The translations under genes and the position numbers were made by a program. From a virus: a DNA stretch of 39,605 bases. Positions 1,247 through 37,592 of the stretch are shown piece by piece. Position 1 is the first letter of the stretch, and the number at the start of each line of letters is the position of its first letter. The notes beneath the pieces were generated by a model. The model searched no databases and was not told the DNA's origin. It saw nothing but the letters and a program-made list of their open reading frames with translations. The stretch lies in the IMG/VR virus record IMGVR_UViG_3300031707_000058, positions 1-39,605 of that record, one strand, 5' to 3'.

Positions 1247-2287
1247 TTATGCCTGTTGAAGCCAATCCCATAGGTCGGACGTATCCGGGTTAAATGGCTG
1301 CTGCGCGTCTTTGGCTCTTATCCGTGGCTCCAGATGCCTTAACACCGATTGATTTCGGATGTGAAACCGCCCGCCCCCAGCGTAGCGGTGGTTGTAGTAG
1401 ATCGAGAGCATACAGCCTTCGGACTGCTTCTCGTAACGGAACTCCCAGGGATCGGGTCCAAGGTAGCCGCCCAGCAACTCCTTGGTGCTCTCCTCCTCGT
1501 CCTCATGGATGCCGTAACGGTCGGCGATCTGCTCGCGCATAGGGCGGAAGTCCCCAGCCTTAATCATGGCCTTGGCGTCAGCCAGGCCGTTGGCGCTGCC
1601 ATGGTAGTGCATGAGGCCCTGCGGTGTATCCTCAGTCTTCACGAACTCGTAGATGACGTATTGCGTCCAAGTTCTCCAGGTGCCCATCTGCCCGAAGCTT
1701 CCAGGAACCCACCTGGCGTTCTTGAGCACCAAAAAGTTCCCATATTTGTAAACCTTCTCCGTCCCAAACCACCTGTTGTTCTGGCGGCTGAAGAAGCCCG
1801 GTTCGGCTGCCTTCATGTCCGCCAAGCTGGCAGCACCCTCCCCACCAACTACTTCCTTAACATCAAAATCATCCTCCTCGGCCTCCTGAAGAGCTGCGTT
1901 GCGGTAGCCTACCGTGCCGGATGGGGTTCCGTTAACGATCAAGGGTGCGCCAAACAGGTTCCTCCAGCTCCTCAAGGCCCACTTTAGCGTTCCAAAACTA
2001 GCGAAACGCCCCTTCCAGCACCAGTGGTTGACGAAATCCACACGGATTCCGCCATGTCCCTTATCAAGCTCTTGAATCAGAACTCTTTGCACAGGCATCT
2101 GCGATACATATTCCCGGATACCCCTTAGATTCCGGCTTTTCCTGACTGCCCGCCCGCTCTCATCGTAGAGGTAATGGACTTCCGTGTAGGTCTCCGGCCA
2201 TGACGTATCCGGGAAGGTGTGGGCTGCGTCTTTCCAGTCCAGGTCGTCTTCCGCCTCAAGCAAGTGCTTGATGATTTCGTCGGTCAC
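1247..2287 (-). CDS. Unknown 346-residue phage protein (GTG start proposed)
   Basis: The frame is open from 2545, but residues before 2287 come from tandem repeats and hairpin DNA and look non-coding. I place the start at GTG 2287, giving TDEIIKHLLEAEDDLDW. The bases before it (GTAATTAAGGTT) resemble the leader of the gene at 17916 (GTAATTAAGTT). The N-terminus resembles those of other proteins here, for example TEIILAALLEDD at 36702. The rest is aromatic-rich with many W, Y and G residues (RWVPGSFGQMGTWRTWTQY). No known domain was recognised. In-frame ATG codons at 2374 and 2443 are alternatives. Function unknown. Confidence 0.65.
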   Translation of the reverse strand: MTDEIIKHLLEAEDDLDWKDAAHTFPDTSWPETYTEVHYLYDESGRAVRKSRNLRGIREYVSQMPVQRVLIQELDKGHGGIRVDFVNHWCWKGRFASFGTLKWALRSWRNLFGAPLIVNGTPSGTVGYRNAALQEAEEDDFDVKEVVGGEGAASLADMKAAEPGFFSRQNNRWFGTEKVYKYGNFLVLKNARWVPGSFGQMGTWRTWTQYVIYEFVKTEDTPQGLMHYHGSANGLADAKAMIKAGDFRPMREQIADRYGIHEDEEESTKELLGGYLGPDPWEFRYEKQSEGCMLSIYYNHRYAGGGRFHIRNQSVLRHLEPRIRAKDAQQPFNPDTSDLWDWLQQA

Positions 2288-2535
2288 AACCTTAATTACG
2301 CCCCTGGCGGGAGCCTCGCGCCGGGCCGTAAGGCCCGTGCCGAAGTTTTTCAACCTCGTTTTGGAACCCCGCATAGCGGGGCCTACTTCCAACTTACTTC
2401 CAACAGACCTGGTAAACCCTTGGTGGTGAGATACAAAACCCATAAAAGGGGTGTGAATTTGGCGGTGAGGGGTGTGAATTTGGCGGTGAGGGGTGTGAAT
2501 TTGGCGGTGAGGGGTGTGAATTTGGCGGTGAAAAA
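2288..2535. other. Structured intergenic region; candidate replication origin or control region
   Basis: This 248-bp gap, long for this genome, holds three kinds of structure. There is a perfect hairpin at 2322-2337 (CGGGCC, loop GTAA, GGCCCG). A second lies at 2367-2381 (CCCCGC, loop ATA, GCGGGG). Four tandem 21-bp repeats occupy 2448-2531. Neither hairpin is followed by a T run, so they do not look like terminators. The neighbouring gene encodes a protein with two winged-helix-like units. Repeats plus hairpins beside such a gene resemble plasmid iteron origins; the origin role is inference. Confidence 0.5.
2448..2531. repeat. Four perfect 21-bp tandem direct repeats (iteron-like)
   Basis: Four head-to-tail identical copies start at 2448, 2469, 2490 and 2511. 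Each contains GTGTGAATTTGGCGGTGA preceded by GGG. The array begins about five bases past the stop of the winged-helix gene. A 21-bp period is two helical turns and is typical of iterons bound by plasmid Rep proteins. In one minus-strand frame they would read HRQIHTP four times, but that frame starts only at a TTG and is unlikely to be translated. There are no spacers, so this is not CRISPR. Confidence 0.9.
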
Positions 2536-3300
2536 TCAGGCACAATCGGGATCATTTAGGATGGGGACGTAGATGACCTGGCGAACCCCTTTTTCGTTTA
2601 CAATTTCCTGCTTAACCCTCTGGTGGAGCTTGCGCCAGCGGTCGAGACGACCTTCCCCTAAAGTGATCGTCCAGACTGGCACTCGGCCCTTGCGCCCGGC
2701 GATCACCAGCTCCCCCGTCCGCTGGAGCATTTGGAAGGCCCGCTCAATTGAGCGCAGGGGCGCGTAGGGGTGGAGCTTGCGCCACTCGACAGCGGAGATG
2801 TAGTGGATCGGCTCGTCCTCCCCTGCGGCTTCATCCTCAGCGATCCAAAAGAGCACATTGTCGTGGATCACGGCTGCCAGGATGCCGTGCGTCGCGGCGA
2901 TCTTGGGGTCGAAGGCATGGAGACCCCCGCGTATGCGGTTGGCCAGAATATAGGTGTAGATCGCGCCATCCTGAAATCGGTTGATAAGTGGCGCATAACC
3001 CTTGACTTTGCCCAGAAGCTTGGGCAAGACCGCCCGCAGTTCTTCGATGCTCAGGTAAGGAAAGACGTTCAAGAGTCTGGCCTTGGTGCCGGTCCACTGG
3101 CCAAACTTCCGGCAGTGCCAGGTGAGGTATTGATAGACCGCCGCCGCCAATAGGCCATGCGTCGCGGCGACCTCGATGTTGAACAAGTGGAGCTTGTCGC
3201 AGGGTTGGGGTTTGACCGTCAAGACCACATCTCTGGGCAGCTCCCTGGCTCTGAACTGTAAACTTTCTGCGCTAAACCGCGCTTCTTTTATAGCATTCAC
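2536..3300 (-). CDS. Two-winged-helix protein, possible replication initiator
   Basis: This 254-residue protein starts at GTG 3300. It contains two similar units, one around AATHGLLAAAVYQYLTWH (residues 45-62) and one around AATHGILAAVIHDNVLFWI (about 134-152). Each is followed by a turn and a second helical segment (LSIEELRAVLPKLL; PLRSIERAFQMLQRTGELVI), as in winged-helix DNA-binding domains of phage and plasmid replication initiators (DnaD/RepA-like N-termini). Two such domains and adjacent iteron-like repeats recall the WH1-WH2 layout of Rep proteins. A transcriptional regulator is the main alternative. Similarity was judged by eye. Confidence 0.6.
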   Translation of the reverse strand: MNAIKEARFSAESLQFRARELPRDVVLTVKPQPCDKLHLFNIEVAATHGLLAAAVYQYLTWHCRKFGQWTGTKARLLNVFPYLSIEELRAVLPKLLGKVKGYAPLINRFQDGAIYTYILANRIRGGLHAFDPKIAATHGILAAVIHDNVLFWIAEDEAAGEDEPIHYISAVEWRKLHPYAPLRSIERAFQMLQRTGELVIAGRKGRVPVWTITLGEGRLDRWRKLHQRVKQEIVNEKGVRQVIYVPILNDPDCA

Positions 3301-3308
3301 GATGGGCA

Positions 3309-3323
3309 GAACCGAATCGGTTC
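3309..3323. promoter_or_regulatory. 15-bp palindrome upstream of the winged-helix gene
   Basis: GAACCGAATCGGTTC is a perfect inverted repeat around one central base. It lies nine bases before the GTG of the minus-strand winged-helix gene, in the divergent gap shared with the HNH gene. It could be an operator, possibly autoregulatory; this is inference. Confidence 0.5.
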
Positions 3324-3354: not shown

Positions 3355-3382
3355 TTGACAAAACTGATTTCATTGGTAAAGT
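3355..3382 (+). promoter_or_regulatory. Sigma70-like promoter candidate before the HNH gene
   Basis: TTGACA (3355-3360) is separated by 16 bases from TAAAGT (3377-3382), directly before the HNH start codons at 3383 and 3389. A transcript starting about seven bases downstream would be almost leaderless, which weakens the call. It lacks the CGTTCT element seen before other units. Confidence 0.3.
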
Positions 3383-4087
3383 ATGCCTATGGCTGAGCAC
3401 ATAACCACTATTGGCAAACCGAAAGTATCAACAGGCAGACCAGAACTTAAAGTGGGCCAGAAGTGGAATTTTTTGCTTATTCTGGCCGAAGCTGGCCGGG
3501 ACAGGCACGGAGGTCGGCTTGTCCGTTGCCGCTGCGATTGCGGCAACGAAAAAGATGCCCAAGCTTATCACATCCGGGCAGGCAGGATCGTAAGCTGCGG
3601 GTGCTACCCGCGCCAGATGCGTAGAGGAAAGAAACTGGGATATTGGCGAAAAAGCCGCAAAGGCGCTAAAACACCGGAAGAAGCAGCAAGGCGCAGCTTG
3701 TTTACGCACTACACCAGCAAAGCCCGCCAATTTCAACGATCTTTTGAATTGACCGAGCAGGAATTTTTCGCACTGACCCTAAAGCCTTGCTGCTACTGCG
3801 GATCACCGCCGAAACGCCTGTTCCACCGGGATAAGCGTGCCGTAACTGTTTGCCAGTGCCTATTCAACGGTATTGACCGGATTGACAGCGCCAAAGGCTA
3901 CAGCAGAAATAATGTGGTGCCGTGCTGCTGGAAGTGCAACACGGCCAAAAACTCGATGAGTCAGGCTGATTTTGCTTCGTGGATTAAAGCCGTCCATGCT
4001 CATTGGGCACTAAAAGTCAATCAAGCTTCTGATAGACTTTTGCCACAGCTATCGAATCCGGCCCCAGCACTGGGTGATAAAACGTAA
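3383..4087 (+). CDS. HNH homing-type endonuclease 1
   Basis: This 234-residue protein (or 232 from the ATG at 3389) has an N-terminal zinc motif (RCDCGNEKD, then SCGC) and a C-terminal HNH-type core: CCYCG, NGIDRID, GYSRNNVVPCCWKCNTAKNSM. Such free-standing enzymes cut DNA at a homing site and spread between phages. Two paralogues occur at 15963 and 38323. Its last 23 codons are antisense to the end of the helicase gene at 4017, suggesting insertion at that junction. It has no clear ribosome binding site. Activity is inferred from motifs. Confidence 0.85.
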   Translation: MPMAEHITTIGKPKVSTGRPELKVGQKWNFLLILAEAGRDRHGGRLVRCRCDCGNEKDAQAYHIRAGRIVSCGCYPRQMRRGKKLGYWRKSRKGAKTPEEAARRSLFTHYTSKARQFQRSFELTEQEFFALTLKPCCYCGSPPKRLFHRDKRAVTVCQCLFNGIDRIDSAKGYSRNNVVPCCWKCNTAKNSMSQADFASWIKAVHAHWALKVNQASDRLLPQLSNPAPALGDKT

Positions 4088-5822
4088 AACCACGGGTATC
4101 GAAAAGCTTTTTCCAAACACGACGGCCACTGCTTCGCAGCGTTGGGTGCTGCACGTCAATAAACGCGGTAATAAAAGCTTCGTTTTGATCTTTCTTCTTA
4201 CGGATGAATCGACCTAGTATTTGCATCATCGGCTCCGCCCCCGCCACGTGGTCCGCTATAATTCCTCCTTTTAGTTCTGGAATCGACACACCCTCCTTGA
4301 CCAGCGGGCTAATGAGCACTCCGCCCAACGTGTGCCGGAACCAATCAAAGGCTTCGTCGCGCTCCCTGGGCGTGTGATCGCTGAACAACACGCGTACCCG
4401 CGCCTGGCCAATGGTCGCGCCGATCATCGTTTCCAGAATCAGGACGTGCATGGTGCGAGTGCAGACCACCAGCGTCGGGAACTTGCGTTCCTGGCTGTAA
4501 TACTCGGCCCAGCGCACGATCAGCTTGTTGCGCTCCTTGAAACCGATGATGGCCTTGTCGATAGTGCGCTCCAGGAGGCAATAGCGCGAGTCCACGTTGT
4601 AGGTTTTATCCTCGCCATCGAACTGGATGATATGGTAGCCATCGACCGTGACCGGCTTCTCGACCACAATCCAATTGGCTGCCTTCACTGTGTCCACCTG
4701 ACCCTCAGCACCGTAAACCTCGTTCTCCTTGGTGCCCTTCAGCTCACGCACCTTCCGCATCTTGATCTCGCCGTTTTCATCGCGCTCGTAAACCGGTCCA
4801 ACGTAGGTGCCGTGCTTCCACTCGTCGCCGACCAGTGCCCAAGCAGGAGTATCGGGGTCGGCCTGGTGGGGAACGTCTTGAAATCGGTTATGCCAGCGGC
4901 AATCGTCCACCAGGTAGATCGTGGGCTTGGCCGACCGGCCCATGTCGATATAGGTGCCGACCGGCACCGTGTAGCGGATTGGCCCCAGGAGGCCCTGAAT
5001 CTTGTTGGCGAGCGCCGGGTCGCTGTCGCGCCGGGAGTCCGACGCGCCCAACCGGAAGTAAGCCGGGAGCTGCATCATCAGCTTCGAGCTGGTTGGGGCG
5101 CAGATGTGATGGCACTCGTCTGCTAAAACGGCTATAAACGAGGCGAACCACCTTTTGTCGATCAACTCTTGACGGTTGGCCCACAACATGGCCACGGTCG
5201 AAATCACCATGTTCTTGCCGGTATTGTCCTTCTTGCTGCCGCCGAACTGAGTGATGTCCCAGCCCGGCAGAAACGCCTTTATGTCCCGGTAAGCTTGGCG
5301 AACCAGGCGCTCGCTTTGCGTGACGTAGAGGATGCGGGCGTCGGCAAACTTGGTCTGGATCATGGCAGCCGCCGTGGCGAACATCGCCGTCTTGCCGCCG
5401 TTTACGGCTATCTTGTTCACTCCCATCCCGTGGACGAGCCAGTAGGCCACGGCCTCGCGCTGGTATTCATCCAGGTCGAACTCTGCCGCCAGGATGTCCA
5501 CCGGGATGTCGTCTGAGACCAGATGCTCGAAGGGCGACTTCAGGCATTCCGACGTGTCCACCAGAAAGCCTTGCTTGCGGGCAAGGTCGATGATGGTGTC
5601 CCGGTGCCCTCGCAGACAGGATGCCGGTCGGCCCTCCGGGAAGGTGATGGGGCAGATGAAGCCGTCCCAACCATCCTGGCCCTCGGTCATGACGTAGGCT
5701 TTGTAGGAAGGGGCGTGCTCGAAGCCTTTGGGCCGAAAGCGAAATTTGGCGGCGATGGCCCTGATCTCAGAGTCGTCGCCCTCCAACTTCACCTTGGTTG
5801 GACCTTCAATGACACGAATCAC
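4017..5822 (-). CDS. uvsW: UvsW-like superfamily 2 DNA helicase
   Basis: From the GTG at 5822 the protein has 601 residues, close to T4 UvsW (587). An N-terminal UvsW-type DNA-binding region (IAAKFRFRPKGFEHAP, DGWDGFI) leads into helicase motifs: a Walker-A-like VNGGKTAMF (about 140-148), DECHH (235-239), GASDSRRD (259-266), KEGVSIPEL (509-517) and QILGRFIRK (534-542). An insertion of roughly 100 residues lies between the two RecA-like lobes. The family reverses forks and promotes branch migration in recombination-dependent replication. The frame is open to 5978, but that extension overlaps the upstream gene. Motif I, GGKT, lacks the usual serine or alanine. Confidence 0.85.
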   Translation of the reverse strand: MIRVIEGPTKVKLEGDDSEIRAIAAKFRFRPKGFEHAPSYKAYVMTEGQDGWDGFICPITFPEGRPASCLRGHRDTIIDLARKQGFLVDTSECLKSPFEHLVSDDIPVDILAAEFDLDEYQREAVAYWLVHGMGVNKIAVNGGKTAMFATAAAMIQTKFADARILYVTQSERLVRQAYRDIKAFLPGWDITQFGGSKKDNTGKNMVISTVAMLWANRQELIDKRWFASFIAVLADECHHICAPTSSKLMMQLPAYFRLGASDSRRDSDPALANKIQGLLGPIRYTVPVGTYIDMGRSAKPTIYLVDDCRWHNRFQDVPHQADPDTPAWALVGDEWKHGTYVGPVYERDENGEIKMRKVRELKGTKENEVYGAEGQVDTVKAANWIVVEKPVTVDGYHIIQFDGEDKTYNVDSRYCLLERTIDKAIIGFKERNKLIVRWAEYYSQERKFPTLVVCTRTMHVLILETMIGATIGQARVRVLFSDHTPRERDEAFDWFRHTLGGVLISPLVKEGVSIPELKGGIIADHVAGAEPMMQILGRFIRKKKDQNEAFITAFIDVQHPTLRSSGRRVWKKLFDTRGFTFYHPVLGPDSIAVAKVYQKLD

Positions 5823-5850
5823 ATGGGCAGTATCCAGCCTGGCTGGAAAA

Positions 5851-5859
5851 TGTAAACAA
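5851..5859 (+). repeat. TGTAAACAA element
   Basis: This is one copy of the recurrent 9-mer. It sits between the stop of the glycosyltransferase gene (5861) and the helicase GTG (5822), in the opposite orientation to both. Other copies are at 7310, 9603, 11528, 16252, 18477, 24713, 28779, 29277 and 34114 (either strand). Confidence 0.6.
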
Positions 5860-5860
5860 A

Positions 5861-6985
5861 TTAAGTTGCGGGCGCAGGGGTCGGCAGAGGCACGAACTGC
5901 TTGCAGGCGTCGATCACATCCTGGGGCGAGATGGCCCCCAGGCACTCGCATACCGTTCGGTTGGGCCGGGGCTGGCAATATTTGGGGAACACACCGCTAT
6001 AGGCGAAACATGGGCTGAAGGGACAGGCTTCGCGTTTCCAAATCGGGATGTGGTTCTTGTAATATTTCGTCCGTTTGGCCGGGTCGCACAGGCCCCACAG
6101 TCCAACGCAGGGGATGTCCATTGTCCCGGCGACGTGAACCATCATGGAATCGGGAGAGATCACTAGTGTCGCCTTGGTGGTCAGCGCCCATAACTCGCGC
6201 AGGGACGGCGAGACGTAAAGCTGAATGTTGGGCCGCAGGGTGCCTGATCCTTTGCACTTCAGGCAAATCTCATGAACAGGCGCGGAGGGCGCAACCGCCG
6301 TTCCGCTTTCCGTAATTGTGGTTCCGCTGGCCGTTACTTCAGGGACTTTCTCCAGCCTGCCCGTGCCGTTGCATTTGGTGCAGATCAGCGCCTTGCGATA
6401 TGGCTCCGGGATGAACTCGTCATAGAGCGCCAGCCAATGAATATTCGGATAGGCATCGGCCAGCTTGCTCAAAATGAAGGCGCTGTCGTTGGGCGGCAGG
6501 CAGCGCACTTGGTTGGCCGCAGAAAGCTGATACATCCCAATCTGCTTCCCCTGGAAGGTGTTCGTGGACTGCATTTCCAGGAAAGTGAAGTTGGGCCGCA
6601 CAACCTTCTGCTTCGAGTCGATGGTCTCCGGGTTGATGCCCGCCTTCCAAAGCATTACGTCCAGCGGATGTTGCTGATCCTGATGTTCGTCGGTGTTTAC
6701 GACTGCTTCCAAGAGGAAGTAGTAGTCATACATCTTGAACTGTTCGTGCTGCATGGGAAGGGTCTGAATCGACTTGATCCAGGGAAAGTTCCACCAGCAG
6801 GTCTGGTTGCCGGGGTCGGTCAAAACGTGAACCTCGAACCCATAGGTGGTCAGGATGCGGGCGAAGGGCCATGTCATGATCTGATCGCCGTAACCGCCGC
6901 TGCCGTTGTAAACCAAGATGCGCTGCGGGCCGGGCTTGCGGGCGAGCGCGTTGAAATTCTGGATACGGCTCTCAATTCGGCTCAC
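5861..6985 (-). CDS. GT9-type glycosyltransferase with inserted DnaJ-type zinc motifs
   Basis: From GTG 6985 the protein has 374 residues. The N-terminal loop YNGSGGYGDQIMTWPFARIL and the later SPDSMMVHVAGTMDIPCVGLWG (277-298) match the ADP-heptose transferase (GT9) fold, which transfers sugars from nucleotide donors. Two CxxCxGxG motifs (CTKCNGTG 202-209, CLKCKGSG 241-248), as in DnaJ zinc fingers, lie in the middle. A C-terminal cysteine cluster (CPFSPC, then YC, then CEC) recalls other GT9 members. The same frame stays open upstream to 7237 with plausible sequence (INFKKSAGAATLTFEAGREY) but no ATG, GTG or TTG, so the N-terminus may be longer. Substrate unknown. Confidence 0.75.
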   Translation of the reverse strand: MSRIESRIQNFNALARKPGPQRILVYNGSGGYGDQIMTWPFARILTTYGFEVHVLTDPGNQTCWWNFPWIKSIQTLPMQHEQFKMYDYYFLLEAVVNTDEHQDQQHPLDVMLWKAGINPETIDSKQKVVRPNFTFLEMQSTNTFQGKQIGMYQLSAANQVRCLPPNDSAFILSKLADAYPNIHWLALYDEFIPEPYRKALICTKCNGTGRLEKVPEVTASGTTITESGTAVAPSAPVHEICLKCKGSGTLRPNIQLYVSPSLRELWALTTKATLVISPDSMMVHVAGTMDIPCVGLWGLCDPAKRTKYYKNHIPIWKREACPFSPCFAYSGVFPKYCQPRPNRTVCECLGAISPQDVIDACKQFVPLPTPAPAT

Positions 6986-19231: not shown

Positions 19232-19840
19232 GTGAAGCAAATCGGTTTCATCGCCAACCAGGACGGGGCCGTCGTCAAATACGACCCCAGGATTCACGCT
19301 GTCCGCGAGCCTGCCCAGCCGCCGGGGCCGCTGACCCGGCACCAACGGGCCACGCTCTATTTCAAGGCCCTTCGCGCCGCCAGCGCCCTGCTCCGCGAGG
19401 TTGGTTTCCAGACCGTAGCCGATGTGGGTCACTCCGGTTTCTGCATCGAGATGGACCGGTTCATCCTGGAAATGATGGTTAAGGAGGCACCGCGCCTGGC
19501 CTATGTCACCAGCTATCCAGGCTACGTGTATGACCCACAGAATGTTACGGCCAGGGTCGAAATGGCTTCCTGCCCTACGGATAGCAACGATTACGTGATC
19601 CAGGTCGTCGCTTCGTATCCCAGAGGCACCTTTGCGCCGTGCTATGTAATGATCCGCCAGAACTCCCCAGATGTGCTCAGGGAGGCATTCATGGGTATTC
19701 TGGCAGTGGCACGGACCTTCATCAGCAAAGACCCTCACTTGATGGCTAAAATTCAGGCCGCGCTGGCGAGGCGCGATCTGGAGAAAGACTTGGACCGGCT
19801 GAGCCGGGAGGACGCCCGGCAACTGCCGCCTATGGTATAG
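19232..19840 (+). CDS. Unknown 202-residue protein
   Basis: The longer open frame starts inside the previous gene; the credible start is GTG 19232, just after the terminator (VKQIGFIANQDGAVVKYDPR). The protein is alpha/beta with a helical C-terminus (KIQAALARRDLEKDLDRLSR). Stretches such as LLREVGFQTVADVGHSGF and PRLAYVTSYPGYVYDPQNV do not match a family I know. It ends convergently, overlapping the big tail gene by 11 bases. Being downstream of a terminator, it needs read-through or its own promoter. Confidence 0.6.
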   Translation: MKQIGFIANQDGAVVKYDPRIHAVREPAQPPGPLTRHQRATLYFKALRAASALLREVGFQTVADVGHSGFCIEMDRFILEMMVKEAPRLAYVTSYPGYVYDPQNVTARVEMASCPTDSNDYVIQVVASYPRGTFAPCYVMIRQNSPDVLREAFMGILAVARTFISKDPHLMAKIQAALARRDLEKDLDRLSREDARQLPPMV

Positions 19841-22800
19841 AGATGGCCAAGTTGCAACCCACGGCACGGCCCAGCGGCCCATCAAGGCTGGTGTTCAGCA
19901 TAGTGTAGTTGCCGTTCATCTTGACCACCAATGACGAGCTGCCGCCGCCATCGAGATTGAGCGCGTTATAGACGGCGTAGTTCCGCATCAAAATGTCCAC
20001 GATGTCACCCACGGCCATGCCGCCGTTGCCTCCCAACGATCCGCTCACACCTTCGGCCACACAGACGACCAGGGTGCTTCTGTCGCTCTTCACGCCAACA
20101 ACGGTGCGGGCACGCTTGAGGTTATACCACGAGTTGCTGTTCGAGTAGCCGCTCATGGCGGTGAGCTGGTTCGTGCCTGATCCATAGATCGGAATGGTTT
20201 TGACGCCGTTCGTAACGACCTGGGCGCTGCCCGCAACGCCATTCCACAAGGCCACGCCCTCCAGGACGTGTTTGTTGTCCACGTAGGCTCCGTCGCGGTG
20301 GACGACCGTGGCCATGCCGCTGACGCCGATGTTTAGCGCCGGGGCATACGGCAGGATCGCGTAGCTCTGATTGGCGTAGCCAATACCGATAGGCTGAGGC
20401 TCGAAGGGCGAGAAAACGATGCCTGACGACGCCACAAATCCAACATCCGCCGCGTTCGGGCTGGCAGACGGGAAGGGCAGGAAGAAGTTGCCATTGAAGG
20501 CCAGGTCAGCGCCCACGCTGGCAGCAAAGTCAAGGGTCGTCTGTCGAACCGTATCCCGCGAGCCGCCAGGGCTGGTGACGAAGGTGCTGGAATTTATGAG
20601 ATTGACCACAGCTACGAACATGCGCGTGCCGTCCGGCATCACCAGCATATCCACGTAAATGTGGTCGTTGACGGACATCCGGCTGCCGATGTTCCAGGGC
20701 AAAATGTTGTAGGCCCCGCCAGGCACGGTGCCAGCCCAGGTGTAAAGATCGGCATAGACCAGTGCGACGGGCCGATTCGGGATCGGCGGAGCGGCTACGA
20801 CCAGACGGTTGCCGTTGTTTGCAATATAGGCGGAAGGCCAGCGATAGGTGAAGGCCGAGTCCACCACCCGAAGGCTGTTGCGTTCGACCTCCGGCACCCG
20901 GTTAGTTGGCAGCGGGTCTCCGTATCGCACCAAACTTTGGTAGGAATTGGCCGCGAAGATGGGTGCCAACTCTCCCTGTTCGGCCAGCCACACATCGAGA
21001 TCGCCGTTTCCACCGGCATCTTCGCGCCCGGAATAGAGCTTGAAGACCAGCGGGCCGACCAACGGGGTGTTGCTGCCATACCAAACGCAGGGAAACGGCA
21101 ATGCCGGGACTGAATCGGTGATACCTCTGGCTCGCACCAGGGCGTATTCCACGCCGCTCGCTTTAACTGTCAGGATGCTGTCGGGATTAACCTCGGTCAT
21201 GGACACATCGGCGGGCAGCGTTCCGTAGAAGGCATACTCACTGCGATTCGTCAGGCCGGTGAAACCTACGGCGCGGATTGGTGTCGGGGCCGTAGGATAA
21301 AGCGTGCCGGTCGCGTAGAGGCGAGGCCGGGGCACCCAGGGCTTCCAGGAGATGTGAATAGTCGCTCTCTTGGCATACATCCTGAAGTTGATCTGATCGC
21401 CTGCCCTCACGTCCATCTTCGTGACGAACGTGCCCAAGCGCATTGGGAATCGGGTTGGAACCCCGGCGCGATAGCGGATGAGTTGCTTGTCGTTGCTGCT
21501 CACCGAAACGATGAACTCCAGAGTGCCACTGCCAGGAACCACCAAAACCGGCTGCTCGACGACATTCTTGCTGACGATAACCGTTGCGTGGCCTTCGATC
21601 AAACCAGCCGCGCCGTCGTCGTAAGTTTGCGGCACGACACCTTGGAACGGAACTCCCGTGTCCATGTGGTTCATGTAAACGTCCACGTCGCGCTGGGTCT
21701 CGTGGTCGCGGTAGCGCACAACCATGCCGCCCGTGGCGGAGCCGGTGCAGAAGGAGTCCTGGCAGTCATAGACCACATCCACTTCGTCGCGCCCGACCAG
21801 GCTGTAGCCGGTTGTGTAAGCTAGGCTGCCCGCGTTGCCGTAGCAGGTGCCGTTGTAGGCCACGTAGCCGGGAGGAATTGTCGTGCTGGGATAGGGAATG
21901 ACCAGTGGATTGCTGGTGCCGTTGCAGGCCAGGAAGGCATAAGCCACACCGCAGTAGCTCCCGTTCGTGTAGGCCACAAAAGGATCATAGGCGGGCAGGA
22001 TGCCATCAGTGCCGACCCACTCCAAAGTGATGCACGGATTGCAGTAACAGCGCGTTACCTGGTCAGCGGGGGCCACGTAAGGAGCCGGATTATAGAGCGG
22101 CTGGAGGACATGGAGCTTAGTAGCCCCATTGTATTCGCCGTAGCAGAACAGGCCCGCTGGCACGCATTTTGGGTCGTAGCAGGCGATGATGTCAGCGACC
22201 AGTGGGTAGATGGTGCCGGAAGCGTCCACGGTGTAGGTGCCGTTGGCGCTAGCCGTCGTAGTGCCCATCATGGCGACCAACGGGCCGACGTTGTGATAGC
22301 ACGCGCCGTCAAAACGGGCGAATGGACCTGAAACCATCGAGTAAACCGTGCCTTGCAGCTCGGCTGGATCGGGCCGGGTAACTCCAACCGGCCAGGAGAC
22401 GAGATCGGCCCCACTCTCGTCGAGGTTGACGATGCCAACAATGCCGTTGTCAATGAACTCAGCGTCGGAAATGTCAACATTTGCCTCTGCGATTTTGAGG
22501 TAGGTTTGGAGGTCAGGGCTGAAAGCATCCGCCATAACCGGCACCGCGACCGAACGAGTGCTGTAACCGCCTGCGGTGAGCAGGTTCACGCTGATGACTG
22601 TCCCCGCATTCACATAGCCATTGGCCAAGTAGATGGCGACCTTGCCCCAAACCCGGCGAGGACGCTGGATGATCGTGGGGTAGGCGGGCATCATGAATGA
22701 AATTGTGAACGGACGCGATTCCTCGATGGCATAGGTCGAGTGGGCATCGACTTCCAGAAGTCCTTCAGTCGCCGGGTCATACGAAGTCGTCCAGTTTTGA

Positions 22801-24020
22801 TCGGTGTAGAACAGCCGGTGCGACTGCTCCGAAATGTCGGGCCTGCCTTCCAAGCTGAGGGTGACCGGCAGCGTTTCGGGCAAGTCAGTTTCATAGGTCT
22901 GGATAGCGGTCGGCGAGCTGCCCATGCGGCCTTCGGGCGTATCCGTATCGGTCAGCAGGTTCACCTTGCTGAACAGGACGGCGAAGCGCCGGGCACGCTG
23001 GCCTGCTCCACCCTCGGACGTGGATTCAGGGCACAGCCTGAACTCATAAACCTGGGTCTTATCATAAAAGCACTTCACCCGGATGCGGAAGCGGAATGGC
23101 AATTGCGGGCCGACCGACGTGGCGAAACCTTCGGTCGTGATCTGGAGCCGGAGGTCGGCGGGCGCGGGCACGAAGTAAGTGTTGCTCAGAAACTCGTAGG
23201 GCAGGTCAATCGTGCCCGGAGCTTCGCCTCGGACAGACCAGTTGCCTGTGGGTGTGCGGACGACGACCTGGCCCGGCGCACGCACCGTCTCTGGATCAAG
23301 TTCGACCTGGAAATAAGTCGTGCCTGGCAGCAGGTAAATTTGCTCGGCCATTGCGGTCATAGGCATAGCCACGGTGGATGAAAAGCTCGCCTCGCCGATC
23401 TGCTCGCCAGTATAAGCATAGCCCAGGAATTGCATTGTCTTGCCCGGCTGCGGCTGGAGGCTGGCCTGAATTTCGTAGTCGCCGACCACGACCGCTGAGC
23501 TGTCGCCAGTGACAGTGTTGTTATCGTTGTCAATGACCTTGGCGACGATCCGGTAAACACCGTGATCGGCGTTTTCGTAGTGGATCGTGGCGGTGGTGCC
23601 TGATGCCTGCCAAATGCTGTTCCGGTAAAGGTTCCAAGTGAGCGACTGGTAGTTCCGGCCCCTGGGGTCGCTGAAGACGATTTGAGCGTCGATAGGGTCG
23701 CTCTTGCGGTATTGAATCTTGCTCCAATTGATGGAGGTCGTAATCGGGCCAATGGGAGTGCTAACAACTTGAACGAAAAAGCTTTGGTGCTGAGCAGAAC
23801 CGTCGCCTTTAACGACGAACACGTCGATCAAAGTGGTGACCGGATCAACCGGCGTGAACGAAATCACCGGGGTCGTTCCAGAGGCAATTTCGACCGTCGC
23901 CCAGACCGACCAAACGGACTGCAACGGAACCTGGCCGTCCACCAGGATGCTCAGCGCCGCCGATACGTTGGCAGTCAGAATCGGTGGTAGCGGCTTGCCA
24001 GCAAACATCAGCGTTATCAT
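19830..24020 (-). CDS. Giant tail protein with C-terminal phosphodiester glycosidase (NAGPA) domain
   Basis: The 1396-residue protein begins MITLMFAGKPLPPILTANVS and has a long chain of beta-sandwich-like segments up to about 600. A Cys-rich part (about 600-800) repeats patterns like GACYHNVG, GTCYGNAG, IACYDPKC and RCYCNPC. The last ~230 residues match NAGPA-type phosphodiester glycosidases: LAFNGNFFLPFPS (1173-1185), RTVVGVKSDRSTLVV (1305-1319), AEGVSGSLGGNGG, and NLDGGGSSSLVV (from 1355). This family cleaves sugar-phosphodiester bonds, so the domain could degrade a surface polymer during adsorption. Virion location is inferred from its make-up and tail-gene neighbourhood. Confidence 0.8.
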   Translation of the reverse strand: MITLMFAGKPLPPILTANVSAALSILVDGQVPLQSVWSVWATVEIASGTTPVISFTPVDPVTTLIDVFVVKGDGSAQHQSFFVQVVSTPIGPITTSINWSKIQYRKSDPIDAQIVFSDPRGRNYQSLTWNLYRNSIWQASGTTATIHYENADHGVYRIVAKVIDNDNNTVTGDSSAVVVGDYEIQASLQPQPGKTMQFLGYAYTGEQIGEASFSSTVAMPMTAMAEQIYLLPGTTYFQVELDPETVRAPGQVVVRTPTGNWSVRGEAPGTIDLPYEFLSNTYFVPAPADLRLQITTEGFATSVGPQLPFRFRIRVKCFYDKTQVYEFRLCPESTSEGGAGQRARRFAVLFSKVNLLTDTDTPEGRMGSSPTAIQTYETDLPETLPVTLSLEGRPDISEQSHRLFYTDQNWTTSYDPATEGLLEVDAHSTYAIEESRPFTISFMMPAYPTIIQRPRRVWGKVAIYLANGYVNAGTVISVNLLTAGGYSTRSVAVPVMADAFSPDLQTYLKIAEANVDISDAEFIDNGIVGIVNLDESGADLVSWPVGVTRPDPAELQGTVYSMVSGPFARFDGACYHNVGPLVAMMGTTTASANGTYTVDASGTIYPLVADIIACYDPKCVPAGLFCYGEYNGATKLHVLQPLYNPAPYVAPADQVTRCYCNPCITLEWVGTDGILPAYDPFVAYTNGSYCGVAYAFLACNGTSNPLVIPYPSTTIPPGYVAYNGTCYGNAGSLAYTTGYSLVGRDEVDVVYDCQDSFCTGSATGGMVVRYRDHETQRDVDVYMNHMDTGVPFQGVVPQTYDDGAAGLIEGHATVIVSKNVVEQPVLVVPGSGTLEFIVSVSSNDKQLIRYRAGVPTRFPMRLGTFVTKMDVRAGDQINFRMYAKRATIHISWKPWVPRPRLYATGTLYPTAPTPIRAVGFTGLTNRSEYAFYGTLPADVSMTEVNPDSILTVKASGVEYALVRARGITDSVPALPFPCVWYGSNTPLVGPLVFKLYSGREDAGGNGDLDVWLAEQGELAPIFAANSYQSLVRYGDPLPTNRVPEVERNSLRVVDSAFTYRWPSAYIANNGNRLVVAAPPIPNRPVALVYADLYTWAGTVPGGAYNILPWNIGSRMSVNDHIYVDMLVMPDGTRMFVAVVNLINSSTFVTSPGGSRDTVRQTTLDFAASVGADLAFNGNFFLPFPSASPNAADVGFVASSGIVFSPFEPQPIGIGYANQSYAILPYAPALNIGVSGMATVVHRDGAYVDNKHVLEGVALWNGVAGSAQVVTNGVKTIPIYGSGTNQLTAMSGYSNSNSWYNLKRARTVVGVKSDRSTLVVCVAEGVSGSLGGNGGMAVGDIVDILMRNYAVYNALNLDGGGSSSLVVKMNGNYTMLNTSLDGPLGRAVGCNLAISIP

Positions 24021-24067: not shown

Positions 24068-24652
24068 TCAATCCGTGGCCAGTGCGCCGTAGATGAACTG
24101 CTGATCGACGAAAGCCAGCTCAGTATTCTCGATAGTCATGGGGTTGACCCGGCCTTTATCCGGGAAAACCTCCTGGCCGGTGTAAAATGGATAGCCAACG
24201 TCCGCACCGACCTGGCGCACGCTGAAATGGAGGTTTTCCCTCTTGGCATCCTCGGCGGTATCCGGCAGAACGATAAGGCTTTCGCGGCGAACAGACGGCT
24301 CGATGAGCACAAAACGCCCCACGATCTTGAACGATTCCAACTCGATCACGTCCCTGGTGAGCCTGGCGATGATGTCCTCGACGTGGAGGAAGCAATTCAG
24401 CACGCCCTTGATGTCGAAGGTGAGACTCTCGACTAAAGACGATGGAAGCTGGAACAGCACAAGATCGCCAGCGATGTAAGTCTCTTTGGTGCTGTGTTTG
24501 CCATCCGGCCCATAACCCTCCATCGCGCCGACCGCGATCACTTCGCCGATCTCGTAGAGCTTCGCCCGATTGGGAGGAAGCTGGATCGCGCCCTTGAGCT
24601 TCGTTGCGTGTTGCTTGACCACCACTCTGCCCGCCATAACTCTCATATTCAT
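24068..24652 (-). CDS. Tandem two-domain GroES-like co-chaperonin
   Basis: From ATG 24652 the protein has 194 residues: MNMRVMAGRVVVKQHATKLK, then LYEIGEVIAVGA, YIAGDLVLFQ and FLHVEDIIARL, matching in order the Cpn10 elements DRVVVK, GEVVAVG, GDKVLF and the EDIMA end. The second half repeats the fold more loosely (GRFVLIEPSVRRESLIVLPD, VRQVGADVG, YTGQEVFPDKG). T4 gp31 and similar phage co-chaperonins replace GroES for capsid folding. The frame extends upstream to GTG 24691 through the leader motif, but this start is likelier. Confidence 0.7.
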   Translation of the reverse strand: MNMRVMAGRVVVKQHATKLKGAIQLPPNRAKLYEIGEVIAVGAMEGYGPDGKHSTKETYIAGDLVLFQLPSSLVESLTFDIKGVLNCFLHVEDIIARLTRDVIELESFKIVGRFVLIEPSVRRESLIVLPDTAEDAKRENLHFSVRQVGADVGYPFYTGQEVFPDKGRVNPMTIENTELAFVDQQFIYGALATD

Positions 24653-24678
24653 AGGCTTCGCACACCTTCTGCTTGTCC

Positions 24679-24722
24679 CCGCACCGACCACCTAAAAAGA
24701 ACGCAGTTACTTTTGTTTACAA
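24679..24722 (-). promoter_or_regulatory. Full composite motif: TTGTAAACAA, CGTTCT, GTGGTCGGTGCGG
   Basis: Reading the minus strand: TTGTAAACAA (24722-24713), nine bases, CGTTCT (24703-24698), six bases, GTGGTCGGTGCGG (24691-24679), then the co-chaperonin ATG at 24652. It joins all three recurrent elements. The primase stop codon TAA lies inside the first. Confidence 0.55.
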
Positions 24723-25793
24723 TTTTGCTCCTGGATCGTGGGCCAGGCTGCCACGTGCGCCAGGGAAGTCTTTACCCAGGCGCATCATGGCTACGTCCTG
24801 CGGGAGTGGCGTTTGTCGTTCCGTCACGGCGTATAGGGCCGCTTCTACATCATCGTTAGCGTCATTGGTCAACCGGGCGGTGCCATCGGCACTTCGGCTG
24901 TGGGGCATCCGGGCAACCGTGACCGGCAGGAGCGCCCCAAGCCTGGCCCCGGTCTCGACGGCCAGGTCACTGGAATCGCTGTCGAACAGGATGCAGAACT
25001 CCTTGATGTGGCGGTATCGCTGGAACTTGGCAACCTGGGAGCGACTGAGGCGATGGGTAAAAACGCAGACCGGTGCGATATGGGCCACATCCAGCTCGCG
25101 CAACTTGTGCCGGAGCGACAGCGCGTTAAGGATCGACTCCACGACGATCACCCGGCTCACCTGGAGGTCAGTCAGGGCGTCTAGGTTGTAAACCCAATAG
25201 CTTGGCCCGTAGGGAACCTCTTTTTTGCCGGGAAACCGCTTGGTGCTCTCAAAGCCTTCGTCGTTGTAGGTGCGACCCTGGTAATACACGCATCGCATAC
25301 CTTCGTAAACCGGGAAAATGCAGAACGGCTCCCATGGCCCCGTGCGCGTAAATCCAGCCCCGGCTTCCTCCAGGTCTTCGATGCTCAAGTGCTTGCGTTC
25401 GGCCATGTCCCGACAGAAACGCCAATAGCAGCTCTTGCGGTTATTGCTCAGCAGCTCAAACCCGGTCGGCAGTTCGATGTCCTGGACGGGCGTAACCGCC
25501 TTTCTCATGTCGCCTTCCATAAGCTGCTGCCCAAAGCCTTCAAAGCCATCGCTGCCCTCATCGTCGGCCCATTCCAAGCCTTTTAACTTGAACAGGGACT
25601 TGACGTGATGGGGCTGGGGGTCGTGGCAGCGCCAGCAATGTGTGTAGAGGGTCTTGACATTGATGCTCCGATTTCCTGTTTTGTCATCGCACCCGCTAAC
25701 CGGACAGAGGATGTAGATTTCATCGTCCGTCGAACGGTTTTTGATGACCTCGAAGGCATTGCCAATCTCGCGTTTGATCTTATCCGGCGACAT
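24717..25793 (-). CDS. Phage DNA primase (CHC2 zinc finger plus Toprim)
   Basis: The 358-residue protein starts at ATG 25793 (MSPDKIKREIGNAFEVIKNR). A zinc-binding motif (C30, C35, C53, C56; CPVSGC then HCWRC) precedes a Toprim domain with VIVVESILNAL (catalytic Glu219) and ILFDSDSSD (Asp271, Asp273). This is the layout of DnaG/T7 gp4-type primases, which make RNA primers for the lagging strand. No helicase domain follows. The open frame upstream of 25793 is antisense to a plus gene. CGTTCT (25809-25804) precedes the start. Confidence 0.8.
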   Translation of the reverse strand: MSPDKIKREIGNAFEVIKNRSTDDEIYILCPVSGCDDKTGNRSINVKTLYTHCWRCHDPQPHHVKSLFKLKGLEWADDEGSDGFEGFGQQLMEGDMRKAVTPVQDIELPTGFELLSNNRKSCYWRFCRDMAERKHLSIEDLEEAGAGFTRTGPWEPFCIFPVYEGMRCVYYQGRTYNDEGFESTKRFPGKKEVPYGPSYWVYNLDALTDLQVSRVIVVESILNALSLRHKLRELDVAHIAPVCVFTHRLSRSQVAKFQRYRHIKEFCILFDSDSSDLAVETGARLGALLPVTVARMPHSRSADGTARLTNDANDDVEAALYAVTERQTPLPQDVAMMRLGKDFPGARGSLAHDPGAKL

Positions 25794-25815
25794 GCTGTAG
25801 TTAAGAACGAAGTTT

Positions 25816-26007
25816 ATGGAATTGAACCAAATGATCGACATTTCGAGAAAGTTCGAGCCGAACAAACAGCAGCAGGCCATCCAGCAGGACGGCCAGGCCA
25901 AAGCTGCCTTCGCCTTGAACTTGATCCAGCGGATGCCCCAAGAACCTCCGAAGCCCGAAGAAGCGGTAAGAATTCCCTGTTTGGGGGTCTTAGCCATTCC
26001 GAGCTGA
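25816..26007 (+). CDS. Small 63-residue protein, lone plus-strand gene
   Basis: MELNQMIDISRKFEPNKQQQ opens a hydrophilic Gln/Lys/Glu-rich protein that fills a gap between two minus-strand genes. The antisense frame here is abnormally rich in Trp and Cys, which favours the plus-strand reading. Its end overlaps the sulfotransferase gene end by 18 bases. No family recognised. Confidence 0.5.
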   Translation: MELNQMIDISRKFEPNKQQQAIQQDGQAKAAFALNLIQRMPQEPPKPEEAVRIPCLGVLAIPS

Positions 26008-26748
26008 CGGGGCGGCTGCCTGAGCCGAAGAATCTAAAAGTTCGCTCCTCTTGCTTGTTCGCTCCAACAGCTCACGGTAGCACGGCCACAGATCGTTAGC
26101 GGTCATTTTACCCCTGGTGATGTGCGCCATTTTCGGCTGGATGAAGTCCCGCTTGATCGTGTAACTCAGCAGTGTCTCCAGGAAGGGCAGGATCGAGCCG
26201 TCGATCAGTTCGTCGGTCTCGATATAGCAAAAAGTGCCGTCGTCGTTGGCCAGCACATGCTCATAAGTATTGAGCCACATCTGCTCCAGGGCAGACCTCT
26301 CCTGGGCGATCACGGGATGATCCGCCCGCAAGCGCAGGGCACTATCCACGAAATCGGATGGTTTGCGGAACAGGACGATGTTGACGTGCGGCTGAACGAA
26401 GAAAGGCTTCCAGGCCGGGTAGGTGAAAGAGAAGCGCGGGTCTTTGAAAGCATAGGGCTGAAACCAAAAGTAGCGCCGCACGGCCATCAGATCGGGGAAC
26501 CTTGCCAGCGGCATTTTCTCGCGGGCTTCCAACGGGATGGGAGCGACTAAAATGCCTTTGAAGTCGCAGACCTGCTTCAGCAGATCGTTGTTCCAGCAGC
26601 ATACCCCGTGGTCTTCCCAGTAGCCCTGTGGCATCTGGCTGGTCGCACCGACCGGGTGCAGACCCGTGAACACTCCTGACTTGGCCAAGGCCCCCGCGAG
26701 GGCGGAAGTGCCGCACCTGCCAGAACCGAAGATAAGGCAATTTCTCAT
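25990..26748 (-). CDS. Sulfotransferase-like protein
   Basis: The 252-residue protein begins with a P-loop-like motif MRNCLIFGSGRCGTSALAGA (G8-S15), the PAPS 5'-phosphosulfate loop pattern of sulfotransferases. Later segments (FKDPRFSFTYPAW; VNIVLFRKPSDFVDSALRLR) match the 3'-phosphate-binding RxPxxxxxS-type motif region. It would transfer sulfate to a glycan or other acceptor. It is last in a minus-strand series of carbohydrate genes, coupled by ATGA to the glycosyltransferase upstream. The acceptor is unknown. Confidence 0.7.
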   Translation of the reverse strand: MRNCLIFGSGRCGTSALAGALAKSGVFTGLHPVGATSQMPQGYWEDHGVCCWNNDLLKQVCDFKGILVAPIPLEAREKMPLARFPDLMAVRRYFWFQPYAFKDPRFSFTYPAWKPFFVQPHVNIVLFRKPSDFVDSALRLRADHPVIAQERSALEQMWLNTYEHVLANDDGTFCYIETDELIDGSILPFLETLLSYTIKRDFIQPKMAHITRGKMTANDLWPCYRELLERTSKRSELLDSSAQAAAPSARNG

Positions 26749-27395
26749 AGCTTATGCACCTCCGTTGACCAGCCATCGCGCACGCACGCCAGCATTCGTT
26801 CGCGGACTGTTTCTAAGACGGCAACCTTTCCGGCAGCCCAATAATGTTTCATCCAGGCGTCCGGCCAAAAGTCGGAGTCTTGGTTGCAGATCAGCCACTC
26901 CGGGATGAACGAAATTTTGCTCCGAAAATCCGGGAAGAACTGCATCAGGCACTTGATGGCGTTTTGCTCCCAGGCGTCACGGGTGCCAAACGGACCAACC
27001 GGATCAACCGTCCCCAGCATAGGCAGCAGATCAAAAAGAGCCTTCGACCAGGCGCAATTTTTGACCAAGAAAGCGCCAAAACACACGCCCCACTTATCCA
27101 GGGAGATGAGCAACGGCTTATTCCACGAAAAGGTATTGACGATCTCCTCCAACTTGATGTCCTGGCGCATCAGCACGATGTCCGCGTCGAGCCACATAAT
27201 CCAGTCGCAGTCGTCCATCTGCGAGCACACGGCCATGAGCTTGTTCCAGGAAGCAGGCTGCTGCGGATTGAACAACGACCGGTAGCAGACAAATCCATAG
27301 CCGTGTTTGCTGGCATACGCCTGGACCAGCGGGGCGCTGACTTCCCCCAGCATCGCCCGGCCCTCGTCGTAGAGCATGACCAATTTTATCTTCAT
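26745..27395 (-). CDS. Glycosyltransferase, GT34/galactosyltransferase-like
   Basis: From ATG 27395, which overlaps the previous TAA (TAATG), the protein has 216 residues. It starts MKIKLVMLYDEGRAMLGEVS and shows SWNKLMAVCSQMDDCDWIMW followed by LDADIVLM, with the DxD metal-binding motif at 70-72. The family (GMA12/MNN10-like) transfers hexoses from nucleotide sugars. The longer start at 27464 lies inside the methyltransferase gene and is unlikely. It probably adds a sugar to a phage or host glycan together with its neighbours. Confidence 0.65.
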   Translation of the reverse strand: MKIKLVMLYDEGRAMLGEVSAPLVQAYASKHGYGFVCYRSLFNPQQPASWNKLMAVCSQMDDCDWIMWLDADIVLMRQDIKLEEIVNTFSWNKPLLISLDKWGVCFGAFLVKNCAWSKALFDLLPMLGTVDPVGPFGTRDAWEQNAIKCLMQFFPDFRSKISFIPEWLICNQDSDFWPDAWMKHYWAAGKVAVLETVRERMLACVRDGWSTEVHKL

Positions 27396-28162
27396 TAGTA
27401 GTATAACCACTTTGGATAGCGAGACTGCGGTGCCGTCATTTTCCGGGCAGCCGTAATCAGGCACTCCTCGCGGATGATCTCCGGGAAGCTATTGGCTCTC
27501 AGGTGGTCGATCAAGTGGCGGTCGGTCTCGGTGAAATCAAGCGCGTAATTACAGCCTTTGACTTCTGTCACCTGGTAGCCGCTGGCTTCAGCCAGGTCTT
27601 TCAGCTCGCCGGGCGAGTATTCCCTGGCCAGGCGCGGCTCGCTGGAGATGATGTAGTTGCTGAAAAATCCGGGGTGGAACCCGTTCAGCACTTTCCAGAC
27701 GGCCTTGATCGAGCAGGCGTTGGGCACGGACAGGATCAGGGTGCCGCCGACCTTCATGGTGCGGTTGATCTCATACATCATCCACATCGGGTCGCACTGC
27801 ATGTAGGACAAGACCTCGCAGCAGAGCACGCAGTCGAACTGGGCATCTTGGTAGGGAAAAGTGTCCTTCTCGGCATCGAAGAAGTCCATCCGGCTTTGGA
27901 ACTCTTTACCCTCGCGGGACATGATGTTTGCGTTCCGCGTGCCTGTCCCCAAGTAGCAGGCATACACGTCCGGGTAGCCGCCGATGAACTTGCAAACCGG
28001 AGCCATCTGGAGATAGCTGCCCATGTCCAGCAGGGCCTTGCCGGGGCCTCCCTCCGGGACGCACTCCAGCGTCCTCAACAACCGGATACGATGAGACTGG
28101 ACGTATGCCTCCGCGTCTTCGGTGACCGTCCAGTCAATTATCTGCGGCAGCGTAACCGTCAT
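27395..28162 (-). CDS. Class I SAM-dependent methyltransferase
   Basis: The 255-residue protein has a degenerate motif I (KALLDMGSYLQMAPVCKFIG), the acidic segment FPYQDAQFDCVLCCEVLSYM, and GGTLILSVPN of motif V, in the order of Methyltransf_11-type enzymes. A C-terminal unit (REYSPGELKDLAEASGYQVT) also fits. In a cluster with glycosyltransferases and a sulfotransferase, a sugar or lipid-carrier methylation is likely (inference). It starts at ATG 28162 preceded by GCAAAAGCT. Confidence 0.7.
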   Translation of the reverse strand: MTVTLPQIIDWTVTEDAEAYVQSHRIRLLRTLECVPEGGPGKALLDMGSYLQMAPVCKFIGGYPDVYACYLGTGTRNANIMSREGKEFQSRMDFFDAEKDTFPYQDAQFDCVLCCEVLSYMQCDPMWMMYEINRTMKVGGTLILSVPNACSIKAVWKVLNGFHPGFFSNYIISSEPRLAREYSPGELKDLAEASGYQVTEVKGCNYALDFTETDRHLIDHLRANSFPEIIREECLITAARKMTAPQSRYPKWLYY

Positions 28163-37055: not shown

Positions 37056-37592
37056 TCAAAAGCGTATCCGCCAGGTTAAAGTTAGGCTGAAATCGGAGGT
37101 CTTGTTGATCCCGACGCTGCGGACTTTCCGAGCCAGGAGCGTGTCGTTGCCCGAAAACAAACCGAATTCGGTCAAGAGATAGCCATTGGCATCGCCAACC
37201 GCGACATTGAAACCGACGCGCATTACGAAGGCCGTCAGAAAGTCAACGCTGGTGATCTTGGCTACGGTCGCTCCGAACCCAGAGGCCAGCGCCACGGCAG
37301 ATTCCAGGGCAACATCCGTTACTCTGGCGGCGGTCAAGCCAGTGCCCACCGCAAATTTTTGGACGGTGTAATTCTCGATAGGGGCACGGAAACCAAAGGC
37401 GTAAGCCAGAAGTTGACGGCCTTGGTCCAAAAATAAGTTTCGCCCCAGGCAAGCTTCATCGTGGCCGACACTCCAACCGCTCGGCGTTCGCTCCGGGGTG
37501 ATCCATCCGTAATCACAAGCCTTGCGGAGTGGCAATTCCTTGCCATCCGCAAGCGTGATCTTGGAAACCGTGATTAGACCTTCAGCTCGCAT
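37056..37592 (-). CDS. Probable tail/fibre-related structural protein
   Basis: The 178-residue protein ends with GYLLTEFGLFSGNDTLLARK, then GINKTSDFSLTLTWRIRF. The E.GLF.G...L.AR...K..........W.I.F pattern recurs in tail-collar and fibre-type proteins of phages. The N-terminus (ITVSKITLADGKELPLRKAC) is unassigned. It is coupled to the upstream gene by TGATG. Virion location is inferred. Confidence 0.6.
   Translation of the reverse strand: MRAEGLITVSKITLADGKELPLRKACDYGWITPERTPSGWSVGHDEACLGRNLFLDQGRQLLAYAFGFRAPIENYTVQKFAVGTGLTAARVTDVALESAVALASGFGATVAKITSVDFLTAFVMRVGFNVAVGDANGYLLTEFGLFSGNDTLLARKVRSVGINKTSDFSLTLTWRIRF

Follow-up and report, generated by a model that had tools for sequence, protein, structure and literature searches.

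We analysed a stretch of 39,605 bp, hereafter the window, which is a whole IMG/VR virus record and probably a genome fragment. It carries the gene set of a T4-type myovirus, including gp20 portal, baseplate, UvsW-like, SbcD-like and exonuclease genes, together with a primase gene at 24717–25997. A gene for a protein with two winged-helix (WH) units is followed by a gap that holds an array of direct repeats. The features of this locus are listed below; the gene strand is the minus strand, and the relative G001 is described further on.

1247–2287, minus strand: conserved downstream gene past the array; start uncertain (about 2287); its G001 orthologue is 57% identical and occupies the corresponding position
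2322–2381, no strand assigned: two G+C-rich hairpins before the next gene (2322–2337 and 2367–2381)
2384–2404, minus strand: 11-bp repeat in two copies (GTTGGAAGTAa/g on the gene strand), detected by TRF, 42 bp beyond the iterons
2405–2446, no strand assigned: moderately A+T-rich spacer from the iterons to the 11-mers (53% A+T against a mean of 43%, 92nd percentile)
2447–2530, minus strand: four 21-bp iterons, exact head-to-tail copies
2536–3300, minus strand: double-WH gene, the putative initiator gene, 254 amino acids with an assumed GTG start
4017–5978, minus strand: UvsW-like superfamily 2 helicase gene, upstream of the putative initiator gene and on the same strand (phrog_16, E 1.3e-34)

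The iteron array and its gap

The array consists of four perfect copies of one unit. An earlier note on this DNA, made from its letters, had reported four perfect 21-bp direct repeats and two hairpins in the gap, and both descriptions are correct. Exact copies of AGGGGTGTGAATTTGGCGGTG occupy 2447–2467, 2468–2488, 2489–2509 and 2510–2530, and on the gene strand the unit reads CTCACCGCCAAATTCACACCC. At lag 21 the sequence matches itself exactly over 64 consecutive bases; the longest such run in 20 first-order Markov simulations was 13. No other strong tandem array is present in the window. A fifth copy was not found in the window at up to three mismatches (chance expectation 0.05). Across viral contigs, an exact search for the repeat returned only two single copies, both of which lie among the capsid-to-tail genes, in the same region, of a single unrelated type of phage. 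The unit has no dyad.

The array begins 5 bp beyond the stop codon of the WH gene. It is therefore placed 3' of that gene and upstream of the next one, which is also on the minus strand and starts at about 2287; it does not lie at the WH promoter. This position makes autoregulation of the WH gene, which the earlier note had listed among its readings, less likely. The array might instead be an operator through which the WH protein controls gene 1247–2287 or its own operon, with no origin function. A conserved gene in the same orientation lies downstream of it, which would suit such a role, as would the fact that WH proteins are common regulators. Nevertheless, a search of the gene strand gave no promoter-like site near the array, and, in view also of the family and skew evidence below, we regard this explanation as unlikely. 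The two roles are in any case compatible, since an array can serve as both operator and origin, as in some iteron plasmids.

Further elements lie between the array and the next gene. The 11-bp repeat at 2384–2404 was equalled by 11 of 3000 random windows. It is a candidate counterpart of the 12-mers found in the WH family and, together with the spacer, could form part of an opening region: the 11-mers are a possible unwinding or auxiliary site, and the spacer at 2405–2446 is a possible melting region, although a weak one in the window. The hairpins have the form CGGGCC-GTAA-GGCCCG (2322–2337) and CCCCGC-ATA-GCGGGG (2367–2381). Folding of the entire gap did not exceed that of its shuffles (z -0.94), and no terminator-like site was found in it. 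A longer open reading frame at 1247–2545, in which the array would be fused to the next gene, is open across the repeats. We rejected it as a gene model, because the repeat unit has no stop in any frame of that strand and the alignable part of the G001 orthologue starts after the gap. Gene 1247–2287 itself matched no family in Pfam or PHROGs.

Between the helicase gene and the WH gene lies a free-standing HNH / endonuclease VII-like gene (3383–4087, plus strand; phrog_1035, E 2e-17), on the strand opposite to both. In G001 these two genes are adjacent, without an insert. The HNH gene is probably a mobile homing endonuclease beside the putative origin. A perfect palindrome, GAACCGA-A-TCGGTTC (3309–3323), is located just upstream of the start of the WH gene and adjoins a sigma-70-like promoter (3355–3382) of the HNH gene; it is a possible operator.

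The double-WH protein and its family

The 254-aa protein comprises two similar WH-like units followed by a short tail. Unit 1 spans approximately residues 38–122 and unit 2 approximately residues 128–215. The similarity of the units, as proposed from the sequence in the earlier note, is confirmed by their alignment to each other (BLASTP, E 3e-6), and each also aligns separately to the same WH family. In PHROGs, unit 2 matches phrog_11233 ‘replication initiation protein’ (E 7.7e-8) and phrog_6493 ‘DnaD-like helicase loader’ (E 0.0028). An HMM of the viral WH domain built from 80 loci finds two matches in the protein (about 2e-12 for the whole; 7e-8 for unit 2 and 6e-4 for unit 1 when searched alone). 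Unit 1 also aligns to the WH family with hhalign (4e-6), and family members match each unit separately by blastp, to 1e-8 for unit 2 and 1e-4 for unit 1. Since both units match one WH family, the protein is a tandem duplication of that WH.

The predicted structure is consistent with this. An AlphaFold model made with a 68-row alignment (a single-sequence model reached a pLDDT of 38) gives unit 2 as a WH with a pLDDT of about 90. Unit 1 has a pLDDT of about 50–78 and the same helix order as unit 2. With a pTM of 0.46, the arrangement of the two WH-like units relative to each other is not reliable. The best PDB matches of unit 2 by VIA-align include 4pql (Z 8.4), 4pt7 ‘initiator’ (Z 8.1), 4pta (7.2) and the Rep–DNA complex 5kbj (7.1). 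RepA_N initiators (4pt7, 4pta) are represented here, among them that of pSK41. Unrelated WH proteins score within 1 Z, and most structural matches are regulators, a point that could also be read in favor of an operator role. The match therefore supports the fold rather than RepA_N membership. The best-matching predicted viral structures include phage replication proteins.

We find no support for the protein being a plasmid Rep of the Rep_3 type, the comparison first drawn for it. Rep_3 initiators (RepE, Pi, and RepA of pPS10) have two WH domains per chain and iterons of 17–22 bp, and in both respects they resemble the window. Yet the 254-aa protein had no Pfam match at E<=1, with the Rep_3 (PF01051) and RepA_N (PF06970) profiles included; by sequence it belongs to phrog_11233, and its fold resembles those of DnaD and RepA_N. 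Sequence searches against NCBIfam and the PDB returned nothing useful, and a PDB profile search by sequence returned nothing meaningful. RepE and Pi structures were absent from the fold-search lists, a search dominated by unit 2 and uninformative on membership. As the units of the window protein are near-duplicates within a different WH family, the resemblance to Rep_3 is likely to be convergence.

The WH family carries repeats with its gene. Among the first phage homologues, five of six have 21–23-bp repeats that lie within the initiator gene and directly follow its WH part; in the sixth, BcepMigl, this position holds two 41-nt copies separated by 45 bp. We extended this comparison to 80 viral loci, in 65 of which the strongest tandem period of the locus falls 200–700 bp after the WH start (8.6% expected). 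The period is 21–22 in 40 of these 65 loci and 12–13 in 22. The presence of repeats just after the WH-coding part in 65 of the 80 loci suggests that the family carries origin iterons with its gene. Of the 33 loci that have both arrays, 32 have the 12-mers after the 22-mers, at a distance of about 10 bp. Many family units form a partial palindrome centered on an A-tract (GCCCAAAAGGGC), and a dyad at p<0.05 was detected in 36% of 47. Helicase or helicase-loader genes lie near the WH initiator gene in several family phages. These relatives function as replication initiators and carry the array within the gene, which speaks against a purely regulatory array in the window.

In a series of the viral loci (L013–L093), 22-bp iterons, often with a dyad, lie about 290–450 bp after the WH start and are followed by a conserved ACCTATACCAGATA motif and A+T-rich 12-mers. 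This could be a common in-gene origin layout, usable to find phage origins. Based on the 80 viral loci, the rule for uncultured phages would be to look for repeats of ~22 bp and then 12-mers right after the WH domain.

The window protein itself looks like a variant of the phrog_11233 type rather than a typical member, which has a single WH, a linker and a C-terminal domain. This C-terminal domain is absent from the 254-aa protein, and the family motif CCTATACCAGATA is not present by the window array. None of the 80 loci has a double WH, which is shared only by G001, and no double-WH relative was found in prokaryote genomes.

A syntenic relative and its GC skew

No close relative was recovered when the full protein, the next gene and the helicase were used as queries. 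An alignment-based query scan detected one locus (L099), which is part of G001, a T4-type record of 238,436 bp. Most of the window is collinear with about 17–59 kb of G001; their portal proteins, for example, are 84% identical. The G001 initiator is also double-WH, 59% identical to that of the window, with long identical stretches in unit 1. The UvsW-like helicase orthologue (65.5% identical) lies directly before the G001 initiator gene, and one DnaB-type helicase was found in G001. The double-WH type is thus known from two members only, the window and G001, both of which may be fragments.

G001 has its own iteron array at the same place. Directly after the initiator stop, at 55.09–55.18 kb, there are 4.0 copies of a 21-bp unit, CTCGATGCCAAAAGGTAACCC, in place of the CTCACCGCCAAATTCACACCC of the window (gene strand). 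When the arrays are aligned in register, 13 of 21 positions are kept, including ACCCCTC and GCCAAA, and the remaining positions are mostly changed identically in all four copies. The G001 array is unique in the 238 kb and is the only tandem run of at least 22 bases there. The two arrays thus agree in period, copy number and place although their sequences have drifted in concert. This favors a function over a neutral minisatellite.

Such a minisatellite, produced by slippage and lying beside the WH gene by chance, would account for the perfect identity of the copies as a recent expansion. We consider it extremely improbable, given that a relative with about 60% identical proteins keeps the period, the copy number and the place, with changes common to the four copies and conserved half-sites. 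Furthermore, no other such array occurs in the 238 kb of G001, and the period of the array is a family trait.

Other elements of the gap are partly shared. In G001 a degenerate two-copy counterpart of the 11-mers occupies the same place, so that a GTTG(G/T)AAGTA-like two-copy element after the array is common to both phages. The G001 locus also has a hairpin, AGGACC-AAAA-AGGTCCT, followed by GCGAGGCTCC. Just beyond the G001 array, within about 150 bp, A+T content reaches the 99th percentile, whereas the window counterpart reaches only the 92nd. The G001 iteron keeps a partial dyad (TGCC-AAAA-GGTA), which weakens a sharp contrast between family iterons with a dyad and double-WH iterons without one.

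The GC skew of G001 changes at the array. Its cumulative GC skew is flat to 55 kb and rises from there to the end, with a detrended minimum at 55.0 kb. A single change point was placed at 55.5 kb, above all 300 block permutations. Third-codon-position skew shifts in the same direction for genes of either strand. A strand-corrected third-position fit places the change at 53.5 kb, with 55.1 kb scoring equally well; the bootstrap median is 55.0 kb (quartiles 54–57 kb), and the explained variance is 13.7%, compared with at most 8.1% in 300 permutations. Such a switch at the array would be unexpected for an operator. It is one-sided, with a skew of about 0 to the left and about +0.09 to the right. 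The switch was observed in G001 only; the window has no more than 2.3 kb on the informative side.

A putative origin and its parallels

Many plasmids and lambda-like phages start replication at iterons beside the initiator gene. T4-type phages serve as the standard example of origins that depend on R-loops and recombination. To our knowledge, replication start by an initiator and iterons is not known for T4 itself. We consider it likely, from sequence comparison, that the gap at 2.3–2.53 kb is a replication origin of a large T4-type phage and that the neighboring gene encodes its initiator. An origin was among the readings of the earlier note, and it is the one that has gained support. The case for an origin with its cognate initiator rests on the family comparison, the syntenic relative and the GC-skew switch in that relative. 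Counted against it are the one-sidedness of the skew, the weak A+T element, the missing C-terminal domain, the position of the array outside the gene, the small number of double-WH members (two), and the modest model confidence for unit 1.

The mechanism would be plasmid-like, but for a plasmid lifestyle we find no support. The earlier note had raised a phage-plasmid state; here the array would be a maintenance module of an extrachromosomal phage-plasmid with iteron-controlled copy number, like that of RepE or Pi. Iterons and a double-WH protein do resemble such plasmids, and single-WH family members occur on plasmid records. Nevertheless, neither the window nor the 238-kb G001 has a match to a tyrosine integrase (PF00589) or a ParA-type ATPase (PF13614), and the genes present are T4-type phage genes. 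The protein also lacks a Rep_3 match and a plasmid homologue (none by tblastn at E<=1). As both records are possibly fragments, the missing partition and lysogeny genes only lower the probability of this reading; on balance, we find a phage-plasmid very unlikely.

Under the origin reading, we propose the following mechanism. The double-WH protein would have arisen from a phage/plasmid initiator family (phrog_11233) whose WH domain was duplicated in tandem. The four 21-bp iterons have a phasing of two helical turns, and this initiator would bind them, probably by placing one WH on each half-site (GCCAAA and ACCCCTC, about one turn apart) of an iteron. Four iterons bound on one face of the helix could then promote melting of the A+T-rich spacer and the 11-mers, and the complex would bring in the phage helicase and primase. 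As the family C-terminal domain is absent, helicase recruitment probably takes place via another part of the protein or a partner.

More tentatively, and rating it a little below even, we suggest that this is a T4-type lineage with iteron initiation, in which a duplicated, two-WH initiator reads a non-palindromic iteron by two half-sites, convergently with RepE-type initiators, and in which iteron and protein co-evolve in concert. The duplicated WH and the changed iteron would then be a worked example of how two-WH initiators evolve. With a recognizable initiator, a cognate array and a skew switch in a relative, iteron-driven initiation in T4-type phages becomes directly testable.

Among the closest parallels are the phrog_11233 or ‘O-like’ phage initiators, such as those of Burkholderia phage BcepMigl and Bacteroides phage B124-14. 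They share a homologous WH domain, and they likewise carry iterons of ~22 bp with the gene, followed by a second, shorter repeat. In these phages the array lies inside the gene, whereas in the window it lies past the stop codon, the WH is duplicated and the C-terminal domain is missing.

RepA_N plasmid initiators (pSK41, pTZ2162) and the PLE RepA are similar in having a DnaD-like WH fold and an iteron array with rep. In pSK41, four Rep boxes lie centrally inside the rep gene and have been experimentally studied (PMC5703833). RepA_N iterons are described as partly palindromic around an A-tract (PMC7145576), as in many relatives of the WH family, whereas the window iteron is without a dyad. The window protein also differs in its double WH, in its lack of a C-terminal domain, and in having no RepA_N profile match.

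Initiators of the SPP1 G38P and lambda O type are a further parallel, in that the origin repeats lie within the initiator gene or next to it; in SPP1, oriL is embedded in gene 38 and has been experimentally studied (PMC5499656). The 80alpha gp20 gene, whose product is reported to be G38P-like, has an annotated in-gene origin with the same two-part layout. We tried gp20 as a homologue and rejected it, as it is not homologous to the WH family by HMM and hhalign; it is therefore an analogue only. Within the T4 type, oriE, the single T4 origin that has iterons, shows them as evenly spaced direct repeats without a defined binder or role (PMC3016281). These are similar to the window array as evenly spaced direct repeats at a T4-type phage origin, but they are 12 nt long and have no known WH initiator, whereas the window repeats are 21 bp long and lie beside a putative WH initiator.

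Elsewhere in the window there are genes uncommon in T4-type phages, at 19830–24020, 24068–24691, 26745–27464 and 5861–6985. Their products are a phosphodiester glycosidase domain (NAGPA) protein, a Cpn10-like co-chaperonin and two glycosyltransferases (GT34-like and heptosyltransferase-like). At 38017–38257, two 109-nt copies, 95% identical and 132 bp apart, form an internal protein repeat within the open reading frame at 37592–38368.
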